Of a DNA stretch of 64,000 bases, positions 55,854 to 64,000 are shown piece after piece (the stretch's first letter is position 1; each line of letters begins with the position of its first letter). The notes beneath the pieces are model-generated. The model did no database searches. It worked only from the letters and a program-made list of their open reading frames with translations, and was not told the DNA's origin. The DNA is taken from the NCBI GenBank assembly GCA_947629005.1, contig CANRCD010000009.1:1-64000 (forward strand). Reading direction: 5' to 3'. The position numbers were made by a program, and so were the translations under genes. The stretch is from an uncultured Clostridia bacterium. GTDB lineage: Bacteria > Bacillota > Clostridia > UMGS1883.

Positions 55854-57221
55854 ATGGTTGAGTTACCTTTCGGTTCTGAGTTTAGCCCAAATCAAATTGA
55901 TTTGCCGGAATTACTTGATATATGTAAAACAAATGAGGGAAATAAAAAATCTCTTGAAGAAGAAATATTGGAAAGATATTTTAAGCGACATGGCAATGGT
56001 AGCGAGAAAAATCGTCGAACTCTTGCAATGAATTGCCGTCTTGGTTTGAAATCTTATGGTATTATTGATGACAAATGCCGTTTTACTGAACTTGGCAAAT
56101 ATCTCTATTCCTGCAAAGATAATGAGGATGAATTGTATAGGCAATTAGCACGGCATATTTTACTAAATTTGAACGGAATGGGATTTGTGCAGTGCTTAAA
56201 AGATATGGCAGCCGCATTGGAGAAAATCACTTTACAAACTATAAGACCTGCACTCGAAATCAGGGGGATAACATATCCAAGAGGCGGAAAACATCCAAGT
56301 ATTATGAGACTTTGGCTTGAAAAGGCTGGCGTGTTAGCCAAAGATAGCTATGATGTAGATTCAGATAAGTTAAATGAAATACTTGATAACAATGATCATA
56401 TGTCTAATCTGCGAAAGCTAACAAAAGAACAGCGCTATTTCCTGTTGGCTCTTCTAAACACAGGCATACAGGATTACCAGTCATCTGCCCAAATTGCAAA
56501 ACTTGCCAGCACTACTTACGGTGTTTCATATTCCGAGAAATCTCTTCCAGAAAAAGTACTAAACGATGTTGAATCTGCTGGGTATATAGAAGTCAAAAAG
56601 TCTACTGTTGGCAGAGGTGCTAAATCTCATCTTTGTAAGCCGACAGCAAAAGCAAAGCATGACTTGGTAGAGCCACTAATTAGGCAACTGGAAACACAAA
56701 CAGATCCAAAGTTAATAGAAATGTTGACAAAAAGCTTTTCGGAAATTCTTGTAGATATCAATTCGGATGAAACGTATAAAAAGGGTCTTGCTCTAGAAGC
56801 TCTCGCGTTTAAGTTGCTCAGAATATTGGGGCTGGATTACATGGCAACAAGAGTCAGAGCAGAAGCAACCGCCGGAAATGAGGTTGATTTACTCTTTCAA
56901 AGTGATCGTCTTTTGTATTCACGATGGCAAATTCAATGTAAGAACACTAACAATGTTTCTCTTGAATATGTTGCCCGTGAAGTAGGACTAACACAAGTCT
57001 TATATTCGAATGTGATAGTTCTCATTACTACAGGAAAATTTTCAGACAAAGCAAGAAATTACGCTAATCATATTATGAAAAATTCAAACCTAAACATTGT
57101 CTTTGTAGACAAAAAAGACATCGCGGTTATTGCTGACAATCCTGTTGCTATTGTTGATGTATTTGAACGTGAAGCCAAAAGAGCAATGCAGATAAAAAAG
57201 CTTGACCTTGGGTCTTTATGA
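55854..57221 (+). CDS. Restriction endonuclease, Mrr-like catalytic domain
   Basis: 455 residues. The N-terminal half looks like winged-helix DNA-binding modules. The C-terminal nuclease domain has E315 (GLALEALAFKLL), D345 (GNEVDLLF) and Q361-x-K363 (WQIQCKN), the PD-(D/E)XK variant of Mrr-type enzymes. It is AT-rich in codon choice, unlike the core genes. A methyltransferase gene starts 12 bp downstream, so this is most likely the cutting half of a type II system. The cut site cannot be read from sequence. Confidence 0.88.
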   Translation: MVELPFGSEFSPNQIDLPELLDICKTNEGNKKSLEEEILERYFKRHGNGSEKNRRTLAMNCRLGLKSYGIIDDKCRFTELGKYLYSCKDNEDELYRQLARHILLNLNGMGFVQCLKDMAAALEKITLQTIRPALEIRGITYPRGGKHPSIMRLWLEKAGVLAKDSYDVDSDKLNEILDNNDHMSNLRKLTKEQRYFLLALLNTGIQDYQSSAQIAKLASTTYGVSYSEKSLPEKVLNDVESAGYIEVKKSTVGRGAKSHLCKPTAKAKHDLVEPLIRQLETQTDPKLIEMLTKSFSEILVDINSDETYKKGLALEALAFKLLRILGLDYMATRVRAEATAGNEVDLLFQSDRLLYSRWQIQCKNTNNVSLEYVAREVGLTQVLYSNVIVLITTGKFSDKARNYANHIMKNSNLNIVFVDKKDIAVIADNPVAIVDVFEREAKRAMQIKKLDLGSL

Positions 57222-57233
57222 GGAGCAGTTATT

Positions 57234-58226
57234 ATGAATGAAATTTATTTTCAAACTAATAAAGGTCAGATATATTGGGGAGATTGTCTTGATTATTTGA
57301 AGGATCTAAGAAGCGGTTCGGTTAATCTTGTTGTCACATCCCCGCCATATGCTCTACTCAAGAAAAAAAAGTATGGAAATGAAGAAAGCAGCAAATATTT
57401 AGATTGGTTCCGCCCTTTTGGGAAGGAAATTTATCGTGTACTTGCTGATAATGGTAGTTTTGTGTTAAATATCGGTGGTTCTTGGAACAAAGGTGAGCCT
57501 ACTAGAAATCTTTATCATTTTAAGATTTTAATAATGCTTTGTGAGGAATACGGATTTAATTTGGCGCAAGAGATGTTTTATTGGAACCCGAGTAAGTTGC
57601 CCAATCCTGCCGAGTGGTGTACTATAAGGAAAATTAGAGTGAAAGATGCGGTTGAACCTATATGGTGGCTGTCAAAGACACCATATCCGAAAGCCTCAAA
57701 TCAGAGAGTATTACAGCCATATAGCAAAAGTATGAATAATCTATTTGAGAATGGATATAAAGCAAAATTAAGACCAAGCGGACACAATATCAGCAATAAC
57801 TTTATGACAAAACATAAAGGAAGCATACCTCCAAACTTGTTTGCTTTGCCAAATACGGAGTCAAATTCTCAGTATATCAAGTATTGCATTGAACATGATT
57901 TACCTATTCATCCGGCGCGTTTTCCTAGTGCGTTGCCAGAATATTTTATAAGAATGTGTACTGATGAAAACGATTTAGTAGTTGATCCATTTGGTGGAAG
58001 TTGCGTGACTGGTGAGGTTGCAGAGAAACTGAACCGCAGATGGTGTTGTTGCGATACAGTAGAAGAATATTTACAAGGCGCTGTGGGTAGATTTATGGCA
58101 TCTTCAGATATTACGTTAGAATCTATTGAAATACCTTACTGTATTTATAAACCTGGATACTTATGGGATACCATTCCAAAGGATAAACTCAATCCAAACG
58201 GTGGAAAGAATCGCAACAACGGATAA
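57234..58226 (+). CDS. DNA methyltransferase, TSPPY (N4-cytosine type)
   Basis: 330 residues from ATG 57234 (AGGAG). Motif IV TSPPY at 35-39 after GDCLDYLKDL, and motif I DPFGGSCVTG at 251-260, i.e. beta-class order. SPPY is usual for N4-cytosine enzymes (M.PvuII-like), though some SPPY enzymes modify adenine. In motif I the usual G-T-T is replaced by C-V-T. It should protect the sites cut by the upstream nuclease. Confidence 0.9.
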   Translation: MNEIYFQTNKGQIYWGDCLDYLKDLRSGSVNLVVTSPPYALLKKKKYGNEESSKYLDWFRPFGKEIYRVLADNGSFVLNIGGSWNKGEPTRNLYHFKILIMLCEEYGFNLAQEMFYWNPSKLPNPAEWCTIRKIRVKDAVEPIWWLSKTPYPKASNQRVLQPYSKSMNNLFENGYKAKLRPSGHNISNNFMTKHKGSIPPNLFALPNTESNSQYIKYCIEHDLPIHPARFPSALPEYFIRMCTDENDLVVDPFGGSCVTGEVAEKLNRRWCCCDTVEEYLQGAVGRFMASSDITLESIEIPYCIYKPGYLWDTIPKDKLNPNGGKNRNNG

Positions 58227-58337: not shown

Positions 58338-59415
58338 TTAGGCGACATGGCAGCCGCTTTCTTCCAAATATTTCATGCAAAGATAGCGCTTACACCCCCA
58401 ATCCTTGCCAGAAATATAACGCAGTCGTGCGCATACCAACATAAGTGCTGATTTACCATCCGGAAATGCTCCCACTACACGAGTGAGTCTCCGAATCTCG
58501 CGGTTCATGCGCTCGATGACATTATTGGTTCGGATTTTCAGCCAGTGCTGAGATGGGAACTCCATATAGGTGAGAGTCTCCTCAATACCGTCCTCAACCT
58601 TTTTCGCTGCCTCTTTCAGCTTCATTGCCCGCAACTTGTTCTATGACATCTTTCGCTTTTTTTCGGGGGGCTTCCTTACTTTCCTGGGCATGTATCGCCT
58701 TGAGCATGCGTGTAACCTCGCGCAGCCGGCTGCGCGAGGTGGCAGAGAAAACATTACGATAGAAATGCACTGTGCAGCGCTGATATCTGGCTTCAGGAAA
58801 CACCTCCGCCACTGCTTCCCACATACCAAGACTTTTATCGCCGATCAGCAGACGTACGCCATTATGGCCCCGTCCTTTGAGCCAGATAAGGAAGTTTTTC
58901 CAACTCTCCCTATCTTCCTTCATCCCTTGGGCTGCACCAATGATTTCTCTATAACCGTCCTGATCCACACCTATAGCTACTAAAACACTTACGTTTTCGA
59001 ACTCACCGCCCCAATTACGCTTGAGATAAATACCGTCAACATAGACATATGGATATTTCCCGGAAAGTGGTCGATTGCACCACTCTTCAATATGTACGCA
59101 GGCTTTCTGGTTGAGTTCGCTGATGGTGGAAGCCGAGACACGGCTGCCCCAGAGCGCCTCACTGATATCCTCAACACGGCGCACTGATACGCCTGCAAGA
59201 TACATCTCGATCAGCGCTTCCTCCACCGAGCTTTCTCTGCGGCGATATCGTTCAATGATAGCAGTCTCAAAGGGAACCCCTTTGAGCTTTGGTACTTCCA
59301 GACGAACTTCTCCTGAAGTTGTGGTAAGTTTACGGTTGTAATGACCACTGCGATATCCCTGACGAGCCGCTGTGCGTCCATATTTGCCGGCTCCGGTCAG
59401 TTCATCGGCCTCTTC
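58338..59415 (-). pseudogene. IS256-family transposase, frameshifted and N-terminally truncated
   Basis: The frame from 59415 reads ADELTGAGKYGRTAARQGYR then RESSVEEALIEMYLAGVSVR, VYVDGIYLK and RCTVHFYRNVF, the IS256/mutator signature. One extra G in the GGG run at 58628..58630 breaks the frame; the C-terminus (MKLKEAAKKVEDGIEETL, RTNNVIERMNREIRRLTRVV) is in the next frame to 58338. The first 50-60 residues are missing at a junction with an IS3 fragment. A candidate left IS end, GGTAGTGTCAAGTATTTTTC, lies near 58271. Confidence 0.85.
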
Positions 59416-59717
59416 TTATTTTTCACTCGGACAGAGGCTCACAGTTTACCTCTCGTAAATTTAGGCAATTTCTTGATGAGCACAATATTGTCCAATCTTT
59501 TTCGGCCAAGGCGCATCCTTATGACAATGCTGTGATGGAGTGCTTTTTTAAGTACCTAAAAAAAGAAGAAACCGACAGGCGCTCATATCACTCTGTTCAT
59601 GAACTCCATCAAAGTCTGTTTGCTTATATTCATGGCTTTTACAACTCCGTTAGGCCTCATTCTCACAATGGTGGTTTGACGCCTAATCAAAAGGAGGCGG
59701 CTTTTATGATCCCTTAA
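59412..59717 (+). pseudogene. C-terminal fragment of IS3-family transposase OrfB
   Basis: Reads LLIFHSDRGSQFTSRKF, then HPYDNAVMECFFKYLKKEE and FYNSVRPHSHNGGLTPNQ, the last DDE Asp and Glu of an IS3/IS150-type integrase core. It is fused at its 5' end to the oppositely oriented IS256 frame near 59401-59415. Confidence 0.85.
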
Positions 59718-60250: not shown

Positions 60251-60294
60251 CATAAACAAAACAGCTATCTTATATAAGATAGCTGTTTTGTTTA
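60251..60294. terminator. 44-nt perfect palindrome, bidirectional terminator
   Basis: ATAAACAAAACAGCTATCTTAT followed immediately by its exact complement, with A/T runs on both sides. It overlaps the stop codon of the leftward methyltransferase gene. Confidence 0.8.
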
Positions 60295-61107
60295 TTTTAG
60301 CTTACTCAATCTTTCGTTGGCTATGTCACACCAAGATTTTTCTAATTCAATACCTATCCATTTAATTTTATGCCCTTGTCGGTTTAGTTTTTCACAGCAT
60401 ACACCTAATGTACCAGAACCGAGGAAAGGGTCAAGGATAATACCATTGTAAAAACCCTCCTTGTTTTTTGGACAGTATGCTTTAATTATTTCGGTTATTA
60501 AAGATTCTGGTTTTTGCGTTGGATGTGTAGTTTTTTCATCTTTAAATAATTTACCTGCTAATGTAGGGAAAGACCATACGTCTCCACGCATTGCTCCAAG
60601 AGGATTAGGTATCCACTTAACACGTTCGCCTTTTGAGTTTTTGTAATAAACGGGATTTTTTAATCTTTCACTACTTTTATAAGGTATGCGTACATCGTCA
60701 ACATTATATACCCATTTTTGGGGTGATTTTGAAAACCATAAAAAAGGTTCGTATTGAGTTTGTGGAGATGTTGTTGAGCGGCTGAAGCCGTTTTCATAAT
60801 ACCATATATTCATTCTACGATAACTTAGTCCAACCTCATACATAATTGCTTGTATAAAACCTATATAATGATGAATCCCAAACCATATCAAGCTACCTGT
60901 CGGCTTTAATAAATCTCTACATAATTCTATTCTTTTTTTTGAAATTTTTAAAAAATCTTCCAAAGGAAATTTATCACTGTCATTACCAAAATCTTTGTTT
61001 AGATTGTATGGAGGGTCAGTTAGAACTAAATCTACTGTAATTCCATTAGAAAGCATCTCTTGTAGTAATATATCTGAGTTTCCGCAAATTACTTTATTAA
61101 ATTCCAA
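60292..61107 (-). CDS. Adenine-specific DNA methyltransferase (DPPY)
   Basis: 271 residues from TTG 61107, 6 bp after AGGTG; the gap to the previous gene is only 5 bp. Motif IV TDPPYNLNKDFG at 30-41, THPTQKP at 194-200 and motif I DPFLGSGTLG at 226-235, i.e. beta-class N6-adenine methyltransferase. It is the last gene of the leftward operon. A second methyltransferase is directly upstream, so the pair may methylate the two strands of an asymmetric site, as in type IIS systems (inference). Confidence 0.92.
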   Translation of the reverse strand: MEFNKVICGNSDILLQEMLSNGITVDLVLTDPPYNLNKDFGNDSDKFPLEDFLKISKKRIELCRDLLKPTGSLIWFGIHHYIGFIQAIMYEVGLSYRRMNIWYYENGFSRSTTSPQTQYEPFLWFSKSPQKWVYNVDDVRIPYKSSERLKNPVYYKNSKGERVKWIPNPLGAMRGDVWSFPTLAGKLFKDEKTTHPTQKPESLITEIIKAYCPKNKEGFYNGIILDPFLGSGTLGVCCEKLNRQGHKIKWIGIELEKSWCDIANERLSKLK

Positions 61108-61112
61108 TCAAA

Positions 61113-62219
61113 TCACCTATCCTTTCTAAAAATTAAAATGTATTGGTGATGTATATTTTCTACGTATGCAAAAGGATAACCGTATGGAAGTAAAGATTTA
61201 TGGTTTTGAAGGAGAACTTTAACTCCCTGTAATGTCAATTTATACCCATCCAAAGTTTTTCTATGGTTAATCGATTGGATTAAATCACTATGAAAACTTA
61301 TAAATTCTGATTTGTTTCGAAAGTCTGAAACTACTAAACACATATATTTTTTAGGTTTTAGCACTCTCCCACATTCCAAAAATATGTCATCGACTAATAT
61401 TTTTAAAAAATCTTCATACTTTTCTACATTTGCCAAATCGTATTCATCATTGTCGGAGTAGTTTGTTGCTAAGTTATTAGCTAAGCGCTCTTTTTTTACC
61501 TTATAATCTGCTTTTTTGTTGAGAATAGACCAATACGGCGGACTTGTTACTATAAAATCAAAATAAGAGGTATCTAATTTCTTTAATTCCGTTTTAGAAT
61601 CTCCGCAAATAAATGTATGTTCTTTAGAGGAATCTTTTCCTACTTCATATTCTAATCTTTCAATAGACAAATCGTACCATTTCTTTTGCAATTCAATACT
61701 GGTACAAATTCTCCCTTCTAATGCACAAGCTTTTGCTGTTGAACCCACGCCACCAAAAGGGTCTAATACATTCATCCCTCTTTTTGTAAAAAAAGTAATA
61801 AGATGAGAAATGTCTTGAAATGAATAGGGAGCAGGATGCTGTCGTTCTATTTGTGCATGGGGATGTTTAGAACCTAATCCTTTCTGATAAAAGAAACTTT
61901 TTGTTTCTGGCAACCACTGCGAACCGTTCAAATCATTTAGTGAATTTCGAGGATCAACTGGTTTATTATCAGTATGGATTTCTTCCATACATTCGTTGTC
62001 TATGTTCTCGAAATATTTATTCTTTGATGGGTTTTGTGGTGCAATTATGGCTCTACTATTTTCTTTAAAATTAGATAATTGTGTCATATCAAATCTTCTT
62101 TGCCCACCTGGAGTTTTGGTGGGAGTAAGTAATCCCTGCTCAATCATTCTATATATAGTAGAAACACTTACGCCAAGTATTTCTGCTGCTTGTTTAGTTC
62201 CTATTATTTTTTCAGACAT
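61113..62219 (-). CDS. DNA methyltransferase with N-terminal MerR/BldC-like HTH
   Basis: 368 residues. Residues 6-48 (TKQAAEILGVSVSTIYRMIE, TPTKTPGGQRRF) are an excisionase/MerR-type winged helix with the GGxRRF wing, as in BldC. After a linker of about 60 residues come motif I DPFGGVGSTAKA (153-164) and motif IV TSPPYW (225-230), i.e. alpha/gamma order, opposite to the partner at 60292. A consensus promoter with tandem 10-bp repeats lies just upstream. It probably modifies DNA and represses or times its own operon (inference). Confidence 0.9.
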   Translation of the reverse strand: MSEKIIGTKQAAEILGVSVSTIYRMIEQGLLTPTKTPGGQRRFDMTQLSNFKENSRAIIAPQNPSKNKYFENIDNECMEEIHTDNKPVDPRNSLNDLNGSQWLPETKSFFYQKGLGSKHPHAQIERQHPAPYSFQDISHLITFFTKRGMNVLDPFGGVGSTAKACALEGRICTSIELQKKWYDLSIERLEYEVGKDSSKEHTFICGDSKTELKKLDTSYFDFIVTSPPYWSILNKKADYKVKKERLANNLATNYSDNDEYDLANVEKYEDFLKILVDDIFLECGRVLKPKKYMCLVVSDFRNKSEFISFHSDLIQSINHRKTLDGYKLTLQGVKVLLQNHKSLLPYGYPFAYVENIHHQYILIFRKDR

Positions 62220-62254
62220 AAGAAAACCGCCTCTCCAATATTATACCATTAGGA

Positions 62255-62283
62255 ATTATAACATGAAAAAGCGGTTTTGTCAA
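62255..62283 (-). promoter_or_regulatory. Promoter of the HTH-methyltransferase gene
   Basis: Minus strand: perfect TTGACA (62278..62283), 17 bp, perfect TATAAT (62255..62260). Confidence 0.88.
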
Positions 62284-62305
62284 CACTATTCAACACTATT
62301 CAACA
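62281..62305. promoter_or_regulatory. Tandem 10-bp repeats over the -35 box, probable operator
   Basis: Plus strand: CAACACTATT (62281..62290), CAACACTATT (62291..62300), CAACA (62301..62305). The phase is one helical turn and the first copy overlaps TTGACA. Head-to-tail repeats suit BldC-like HTH proteins, and such an HTH is encoded by the gene this promoter drives. Confidence 0.65.
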
Positions 62306-62309
62306 TTTG

Positions 62310-63353
62310 CTATTTCTTGGGTTCTAAGATACCTAAAAATTTATCAGAGATTTCAACAGCTCTCCCGATTTGCCATGAAATAGTAGAACGTAAATTCATA
62401 TTATCATAATCAAGATAATATGTTACATCGTCTGGCAAAAGCAAACAGCCGTTCCAGTTCAATATCATCATTGCTCCTATTGTTAATGTAGAAATAAAAA
62501 TATTCTCTACATTTTTTACATCTTTAACGACCTGCCAATATCCTTGACGTGCATTTGGCAACTGCAAACATACTACCAAAGGACTATTATTATCTTTTTC
62601 AATACCATATCGAGTATGTAAAACAGCAATATCATCTAAAATGCCTCTTGATGCATCTAATGTATCTCTACCAAATTCCACCTCCACAGCACCGAAAGAA
62701 TTGTTGGCAGAAGAATAAACCGCATCCATTCGAGTATATACATCACCAATGCGTCTCATTGAGGACCTACAACCAAGTGAAATCAAAAGATTTCTAGCAA
62801 TTAAATTATGGAAAACGCTTTGAGTTTCAAAGAGTTTTTTGTAAATACTATCCAACAACTCATCAGTTTCCATAATTGGAACACCTGTTTTTTCTATATT
62901 TTCAATCAGTTTAATTTGTTCATTTTGTCGAGCAATAGAAGCGTTATCGACACCACCTCTAATTTGTTTTTCTGAAATGGTTGTATTAACTTTTATATCA
63001 CCATCAAAATAAATTGCTCCTATCGGACATCGTCTAAGGCAAATACCGCAACTAATACATTTATCAGTATTGATTCTTGGAGAATCGTTCTCTGTATCCC
63101 AACTTAAAGCTTCTACTGGGCATACTGTACGAGACTGATCATGCGGAAAATTCTCAACTTCCTCACATTCAACATCTGTATTTTCAAAATACATACATAG
63201 CGGATTTACACAACCAATACATCCAAGCGCACAACAATTACCGTCAGAGAATCGAGCAATAGACGGTGCTCCACAACCATACTCAATACTTAAAGGTGTA
63301 TCAGATAAAATAGAAATGTTCGTTCTATTCGTTGTCTCTGAGAATATATGCAT
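62310..63353 (-). CDS. Two-[4Fe-4S] ferredoxin domain fused to a PD-(D/E)XK-like domain
   Basis: 347 residues from ATG 63353 (GGAGGG, 8 bp). Residues 27-109 hold the cysteines of two clusters: C45-x2-C48-x4-C53...C78-P, and the classic C99-x2-C102-x2-C105-x3-C109-P (DKCISCGICLRRCPIGAI). Residues about 175-300 resemble a restriction-nuclease fold: a helix (HNLIARNLLISLG), D210 in RMDAVYSS and E224-V-E226 in GAVEVEFG, with Glu where Lys is usual. It overlaps the upstream nuclease by 29 bp and precedes two methyltransferases. It may be a redox-sensitive or cluster-stabilised restriction subunit. The function is unproven. Confidence 0.8.
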   Translation of the reverse strand: MHIFSETTNRTNISILSDTPLSIEYGCGAPSIARFSDGNCCALGCIGCVNPLCMYFENTDVECEEVENFPHDQSRTVCPVEALSWDTENDSPRINTDKCISCGICLRRCPIGAIYFDGDIKVNTTISEKQIRGGVDNASIARQNEQIKLIENIEKTGVPIMETDELLDSIYKKLFETQSVFHNLIARNLLISLGCRSSMRRIGDVYTRMDAVYSSANNSFGAVEVEFGRDTLDASRGILDDIAVLHTRYGIEKDNNSPLVVCLQLPNARQGYWQVVKDVKNVENIFISTLTIGAMMILNWNGCLLLPDDVTYYLDYDNMNLRSTISWQIGRAVEISDKFLGILEPKK

Positions 63354-64000
63354 TCATCATTCCCTCCAATATATATAGTTTTTCTTTATCAAAACCTTTA
63401 CCATCCACCAGTATACTCACAGCTAATGACAACAGCGAGTTTAGATCGATGACACCGATTTTATATCCATAGGTTTCTTTTATATATGAAATTAATCTAC
63501 TAACCTCTGCACGTTCATTTGGCATATAATATCCAACTGCAAGTGAAGACACTTCTGGAGTTGTAATATATGAAGCTCGTGATAATAAAATAATTTTGTT
63601 TTCTAATGCTTGTCTAATTGCTTTTATAGAAAGGTTTTGTTCTTCAGTTGGAGATTTAATCTCAATTGGAATACTTCTTTCGGGGTCGTCAATGATTGCA
63701 TCCCAACGAGCGCCATTATCACCAGGTCGTGAATACGAGCACTTAAATCCTATTATTTTAAACAATGTTGCAATTAATGGGTAAAAAGTTGTTTGAGTCG
63801 CATCCGAATAGTATTCAAATAATAATGCTACGATTTCGGGACTAGAATAACCAGATGATTTTAAATCTTTTACCCTTTGAAGAAACTCTATATCCTCAGG
63901 CTCCACAAGAAGGTCTATAGCTGCTTCTTCAGGAATATTCAATTCCCAAATTTGTGTAGTCGTTAGTTCTGTTCTTTCTGTAACAGCACTATTGAATGTT
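63325..64000 (-). CDS. PD-(D/E)XK restriction nuclease subunit (5' end outside the window)
   Basis: At least 225 codons; the frame is open to the window edge. A TTG at 63942 could start a 205-residue protein but has no ribosome site, so the real start is probably further upstream. Counting from that TTG, the nuclease motif is D81 (GARWDAIIDDPERSIP) and E94-I-K96 (IEIKSPTE), followed by a helix (IRQALENKIILLSR), a textbook PD-(D/E)XK core. It is first in the visible leftward operon and translationally coupled to the Fe-S protein. Confidence 0.82.
   Translation of the reverse strand, partial: TFNSAVTERTELTTTQIWELNIPEEAAIDLLVEPEDIEFLQRVKDLKSSGYSSPEIVALLFEYYSDATQTTFYPLIATLFKIIGFKCSYSRPGDNGARWDAIIDDPERSIPIEIKSPTEEQNLSIKAIRQALENKIILLSRASYITTPEVSSLAVGYYMPNERAEVSRLISYIKETYGYKIGVIDLNSLLSLAVSILVDGKGFDKEKLYILEGMMNAYILRDNE

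Follow-up and report, generated by a model that had tools for sequence, protein, structure and literature searches.

A candidate heterodimeric restriction-modification system from a Clostridia bacterium with a predicted iron-sulfur module on its small nuclease subunit

Type IIT restriction enzymes have two different catalytic sites, placed in two subunits or domains; they recognise an asymmetric site, cut within it or close to one side of it, and are generally accompanied by a methyltransferase for each strand, as two proteins or as a fusion (PMC4081073). In BsrDI, BtsI and BspD6I the large subunit is responsible for recognition and for cutting one strand, the small subunit for cutting the other (PMC4081073), and the small subunit of BspD6I is active only alongside a catalytically active large subunit (PMC6261011). 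Here we describe a four-gene locus from an uncultured Clostridia bacterium that encodes two nuclease-type subunits (R1 and R2) and two DNA methyltransferases (M1 and M2), and in which R2 carries an additional N-terminal module predicted to hold two [4Fe-4S] clusters. The locus lies at the end of the analysed window, which comprises the first 64,000 bases of the 74,878-base contig CANRCD010000009.1 (Table 1).

All four genes lie on the minus strand in the order R1, R2, M1, M2. A recheck of the open reading frames and motifs in the sequence bore out the first-pass annotation of this DNA as to frames, strand, motifs and two couplings: R1 and R2 share 29 bp (63325-63353), the end of the one being the start of the other, and 5 bp (61108-61112) separate M1 from M2. 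The first nuclease of that annotation kept its PD-(D/E)XK motif but not its length of 205 residues, which came about because the window edge cuts the gene: the frame runs on to contig position 65061, giving a full R1 of 578 amino acids (not 205 or 224). Residues D81 and E94-x-K96 of the earlier frame correspond to D454 and E467-x-K469 (E467-I-K469) of the full protein, and D454, E467 and K469 are invariant across the homologues.

R1 belongs to no Pfam family. An AlphaFold2 (AF2) model of its homologue from Ruminiclostridium cellobioparum, built on a five-sequence alignment, reached a predicted local distance difference test (pLDDT) score of 74. Comparison of this model with the PDB using Foldseek gave matches to Nt.BspD6I (E 1e-7, probability 1.00) and FokI (E 6e-7), and all seven chains below E 0.001 belong to these two enzymes. 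The model shows the fold of a BspD6I/FokI-like Type IIS large subunit, with N-terminal recognition domains followed by a C-terminal PD-(D/E)XK domain. The match to Nt.BspD6I extends along the length of R1, although sequence similarity is undetectable. The heterodimeric Type IIS/IIT enzyme R.BspD6I/BstNBI, with a large nicking subunit of 604 amino acids and a small catalytic subunit of 186, offers a close likeness, a large recognising and nicking subunit paired with a smaller nuclease; the small subunit described here differs in being about 160 amino acids longer, with an N-terminal 2[4Fe-4S] ferredoxin-like module. FokI resembles R1 in its N-terminal recognition part and C-terminal nuclease, but is a single protein, whereas every locus of the present kind encodes a second, different nuclease subunit.

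The C-terminal part of R2 likewise has no Pfam family, but is homologous to the nuclease domain of R1. A profile of the R2 nuclease domain retrieved the R1 nuclease domain in a whole-genome search (genome G633, E 1e-8), and hhalign aligned the two domains with E-values of 5e-12 and 7e-13 (probability 97.8 for the latter). Since the profile search finds the R1 domain and the profile comparison aligns both, the sequences indicate that the two descend from one ancestral domain. The residues of R2 that align with D454, E467 and K469 of R1 are D210, E224 and E226, so that E-x-E stands in place of E-x-K; all three are invariant in the ten R2 proteins compared, nine of which are 25-63% identical to that of the window. 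Within the limits of a model with a pLDDT of 40, residues 182-291 follow the helix-strand-strand-strand-helix-strand order of a PD-(D/E)XK core, at low confidence, and EndoMS, EcoT38I and Nt.BspD6I are among the leading PDB matches of the model. Element order and matches together point to the nuclease fold that had been expected in residues 170-347. The two subunits would thus provide two different putative catalytic sites, as in Type IIT enzymes.

The N-terminal part of R2 contains the motifs C45-x2-C48-x4-C53-x24-C78-P and C99-x2-C102-x2-C105-x3-C109-P. Cysteines 45, 48, 53, 78, 99, 102, 105 and 109 are invariant in all ten proteins, C41 and C63 vary, and the proline after C78 is replaced in one homologue (L026). 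R2 thus has the eight cysteines of a 2[4Fe-4S] ferredoxin-like domain, with a long insertion before the CP of the first motif. The earlier assignment of two bacterial-type [4Fe-4S] motifs holds for the eight ligands; the first motif, however, is not the textbook C-x2-C-x2-C-x3-C but C-x2-C-x4-C, with its fourth cysteine (C78P) 24 residues further on. Pfam Fer4 matches the R2 of the window at 30.3 bits (gathering cutoff 21.1) and also matches every homologue. Given the Fer4 score, its recurrence in 10/10 proteins and the invariance of eight cysteines and three acids, the motifs are not a product of chance. From the pairing in ferredoxins, cluster I would presumably be held by C45/C48/C53/C109 and cluster II by C99/C102/C105/C78, and the module is predicted to hold two [4Fe-4S] clusters.

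Other DNA-defence proteins with iron-sulfur (Fe-S) features are built differently. Cas4, AddB and Dna2 also join a PD-(D/E)XK nuclease to an Fe-S cluster, but theirs is one cluster, with its cysteines on either side of the nuclease core. In R2 the eight cysteines (45-109) form a separate N-terminal module. No cysteine in or after its nuclease domain is invariant, which sets R2 apart from Cas4/AddB, as first suggested, and a Cas4-like architecture is rejected by the cysteine positions. The 3'-phosphoadenosine-5'-phosphosulfate (PAPS) reductase proteins of bacteriophage exclusion (BREX) type 4 and some Ssp systems possess a ferredoxin-type cysteine region (PMC12839542); they share with R2 such a region in a DNA-defence setting, but they are parts of phosphorothioation systems rather than nucleases. 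Among Type IIT enzymes with one catalytic site per subunit, BbvCI and Bpu10I provide a further likeness in their two PD-(D/E)XK subunits and the two methyltransferases general in the type. The subunits of BbvCI, however, are of similar size (PMC4081073), whereas those described here are unequal and one bears an Fe-S module; the BbvCI structure paper mentions neither Fe-S nor zinc.

The complete four-gene set was found in ten distinct contigs: the window, R. cellobioparum, two further genomes and six IMG/VR contigs. The scan of genome contigs gave a single relative, R. cellobioparum, which has the same genes in the same order (R2 63% and R1 67% identical to the window). Searches with the whole of R2 returned, besides the window, only ordinary ferredoxin-type domains, and later searches therefore used the nuclease domain alone. 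Whole-genome profile searches brought in two more relatives, of which one falls in the same class and the other in a different class within the same phylum, and IMG/VR scans added six independent contigs with the full set. One more IMG/VR contig (L027) has R1 only, at the contig end, and R1 scans of that database saturated at eight contigs. Gene order varies: R1-R2-M1-M2 in the window and R. cellobioparum (L011), M1-M2-R1-R2 in L021, and R1-R2 facing a convergent M1-M2 in L020, L023, L024, L026, L034, L035 and L036. Every locus nevertheless keeps all four genes, and R1 always comes before R2 and overlaps it. In each of the ten loci the eight cysteines and the nuclease acids are conserved beside methyltransferases, and the ferredoxin module is fused to the nuclease in a single open reading frame, as the first-pass annotation had read it in the window. 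The system is real and conserved, scattered widely yet rare, and probably a variant of heterodimeric Type II restriction-modification.

M1 and M2, present in all ten loci, both match Pfam N6_N4_Mtase. M1 contains TSPPYW, with motif I before motif IV, and an N-terminal excisionase/MerR-like helix-turn-helix (HTH); M2 contains DPPYN, with motif IV before motif I. Motifs and Pfam thus agree with the earlier description of an HTH-methyltransferase and a DPPY methyltransferase. The same annotation saw one leftward operon. The shared strand stands, but a single transcription unit is doubtful: since a perfect promoter with iterons precedes M1-M2, the four genes probably form two transcription units, R1-R2 and M1-M2, which could be expressed separately. 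All five systems with an HTH on M1 have the iterons (consensus GTTGA(A/C)(A/T)AGT) upstream of that gene, with one good copy only in L024, while tandem iterons occur in none of the five whose M1 lacks the domain, a small sample in which the five HTH systems are related to each other. Based on this co-occurrence, the M1 HTH of this lineage probably regulates its own promoter through the 10-bp repeats.

Table 1. Features of the restriction-modification locus in window coordinates.
Feature	Coordinates	Strand	Basis
R1, C-terminal part, about 225 codons in the window	63325..64000	-	open reading frame, homologues
R2, small restriction subunit, 347 amino acids, Fe-S module and nuclease domain	62310..63353	-	open reading frame, Pfam, conservation
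R2 predicted Fe-S module core, residues 45-109	63027..63221	-	eight invariant cysteines, Fer4
R2 nuclease domain, residues 160-347	62313..62876	-	homology to R1 nuclease domain, model
R2 presumed active site, D210, E224, E226	62676..62726	-	invariance, alignment to R1 D454/E467/K469
Putative operator of the M1 HTH: tandem 10-bp iterons (GTTGAATAGT x2, GTTGACAAAA) overlapping the -35	62275..62304	-	sequence
M1-M2 promoter, TTGACA-17-TATAAT, 12/12 consensus positions, TG before -10	62255..62283	-	sequence, between R2 and M1
M1, DNA methyltransferase, N-terminal HTH	61113..62219	-	Pfam, motifs
M2, DNA methyltransferase	60292..61107	-	Pfam, motifs
Terminator-like hairpin, 20-bp stem, at M2 end	60252..60295	.	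sequence

We read the locus as a heterodimeric Type IIT/IIS restriction-modification system whose R2 subunit bears an Fe-S module, with a probability of roughly three in four. The N-terminal part of R1 (about 400 residues) would recognise an asymmetric site, and its C-terminal PD-(D/E)XK domain would nick one strand. R2, as a second catalytic subunit with a homologous nuclease domain, would cut the other strand, and host DNA would be protected by M1 and M2 through methylation of the site, one strand by each. This division of labour is suggested by the presence of all the Type IIT/BspD6I parts, and the one-per-strand role of the methyltransferases by analogy with that type. In R2 the module stands where R1 has its recognition part; most likely it would serve the folding of R2 and its docking to R1 or to DNA, in which case cutting would need the intact holo-protein.

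In favour of this reading, the pairwise distances of R1, R2, M1 and M2 correlate (r 0.68-0.94; a value as high arose in 0/2000 permutations), in line with inheritance as a set. Several points weigh against it. The permutation corrects only partly for shared phylogeny. The whole-model TM-score of R1 is low (0.32), which would fit either flexible domain placement or a similarity that is only partial, and neither R1 nor the R2 nuclease domain has a sequence match to any solved restriction enzyme in the PDB. The model of R2 is too poor for placing the Fe-S module. Finally, R2 has E-x-E rather than E-x-K, and it is by analogy with BamHI-type sites that the subunit is taken to be active.

The strongest competing explanation treats the clusters as a switch: oxidation, damage by O2 or nitric oxide (NO), or iron shortage would disable R2 and leave R1 as a nickase, so that restriction follows the redox or iron state of the cell. 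The ligands retained in R2 number eight, just as in a 2[4Fe-4S] ferredoxin, and so exceed what one structural cluster requires, and a nicking state would be available by analogy, as Nt.BspD6I nicks alone (PMC6261011). No redox partner or electron-transfer gene, however, is conserved beside the module across the ten loci. An electron-transfer enzyme is rejected on this ground, electron transfer is an unlikely function of the module, and the earlier proposal of a cutting activity governed by redox state or electron supply is left unsupported. Many DNA enzymes, moreover, carry Fe-S clusters without a demonstrated regulatory role. We therefore consider the switch unlikely, though not negligible, and the module to be most likely a folding, structural or docking element. 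Slightly more tentative is the idea that Fe-S cluster state switches double-strand cutting here, which would be a first for a restriction endonuclease, both strands being cut when the clusters are intact and R1 merely nicking when they are damaged or missing, which would couple phage restriction to oxygen, NO or iron.

Next in rank is a non-catalytic R2, in which a degenerate nuclease-like domain (E-x-E) belongs to an Fe-S specificity or activation subunit, and R1 cuts both strands through FokI-like transient dimerisation. The lysine is replaced by glutamate in all R2 proteins while R1 keeps the canonical motif, and R1 also resembles FokI. Yet D210, E224 and E226 are invariant although some R2 proteins are only 25% identical to that of the window, and invariance at such divergence argues for selection on the R2 site. 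E-x-E is itself catalytic in BamHI, and two methyltransferases with two homologous nucleases fit a scheme of two active sites; we judge a non-catalytic R2 improbable. That the cysteines bind zinc or another metal as a structural finger is much less probable again: restriction enzymes with zinc modules exist, but the CxxCxxCxxxCP plus CP pairing and the Fer4 match in all ten proteins are the signature of a 2[4Fe-4S] domain. A ferredoxin gene that is merely a chance neighbour of, or a recent fusion to, the nuclease gene is ruled out by the fused reading frame in all ten loci, from at least two bacterial classes and from contigs called viral.

A second restriction-modification pair lies nearby on the plus strand (55854-58226), comprising an Mrr_cat-domain protein (455 amino acids) and an N6_N4 methyltransferase (330 amino acids). 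Between the two restriction systems are broken transposase fragments at 58338-59226 and 59532-59717, of Mutator/IS256 type (Pfam) and with an integrase-core-like piece (by eye), which suggests an insertion hot spot. Upstream of R1, contig positions 66062-70079 hold three genes. One product resembles dihydroorotate dehydrogenase and has ferredoxin-like cysteines close to the C-terminus (by eye), another joins a calcineurin-like phosphoesterase to a dCTP-deaminase-like domain, and the third is an AAA_33/kinase protein that weakly matches a phosphoribosyltransferase; the three are possibly a nucleotide-based defence or salvage cluster. Plasmid searches gave no match to the system, and searches of annotated phages nothing beyond plain ferredoxin motifs. 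Phage-like genes (by eye: integrase, terminase- or portal-like) flank the system in IMG/VR contigs L023, L026, L027 and L036, and the system may therefore travel as prophage cargo.

The first-pass annotation did not recognise the arrangement as a described system. In layout it corresponds to Type IIT, as in BspD6I, BsrDI, BtsI and BbvCI; for the Fe-S module alone was no description found. We found no Type II restriction enzyme with such a module among 5.39 million open papers, although an unpublished or subscription description is possible. Searches there for restriction enzymes with Fe-S yielded Cas4, Dnd/BREX sulfur enzymes and a DNA2-like helicase-nuclease, and the 2014 review that describes Type IIT enzymes does not mention iron (PMC4081073). 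The module on R2 appears to be the new element of the system, with a well-supported architecture and a predicted cluster chemistry and role. The locus would represent a family of nickase/cutter pairs that is new, and the type strain Ruminiclostridium cellobioparum DSM 1351 has one such pair. Should cluster binding be confirmed, Fe-S biogenesis would join the requirements of a restriction system, the second-strand cutter would be metal-dependent, and redox or iron gating of restriction would become directly testable.

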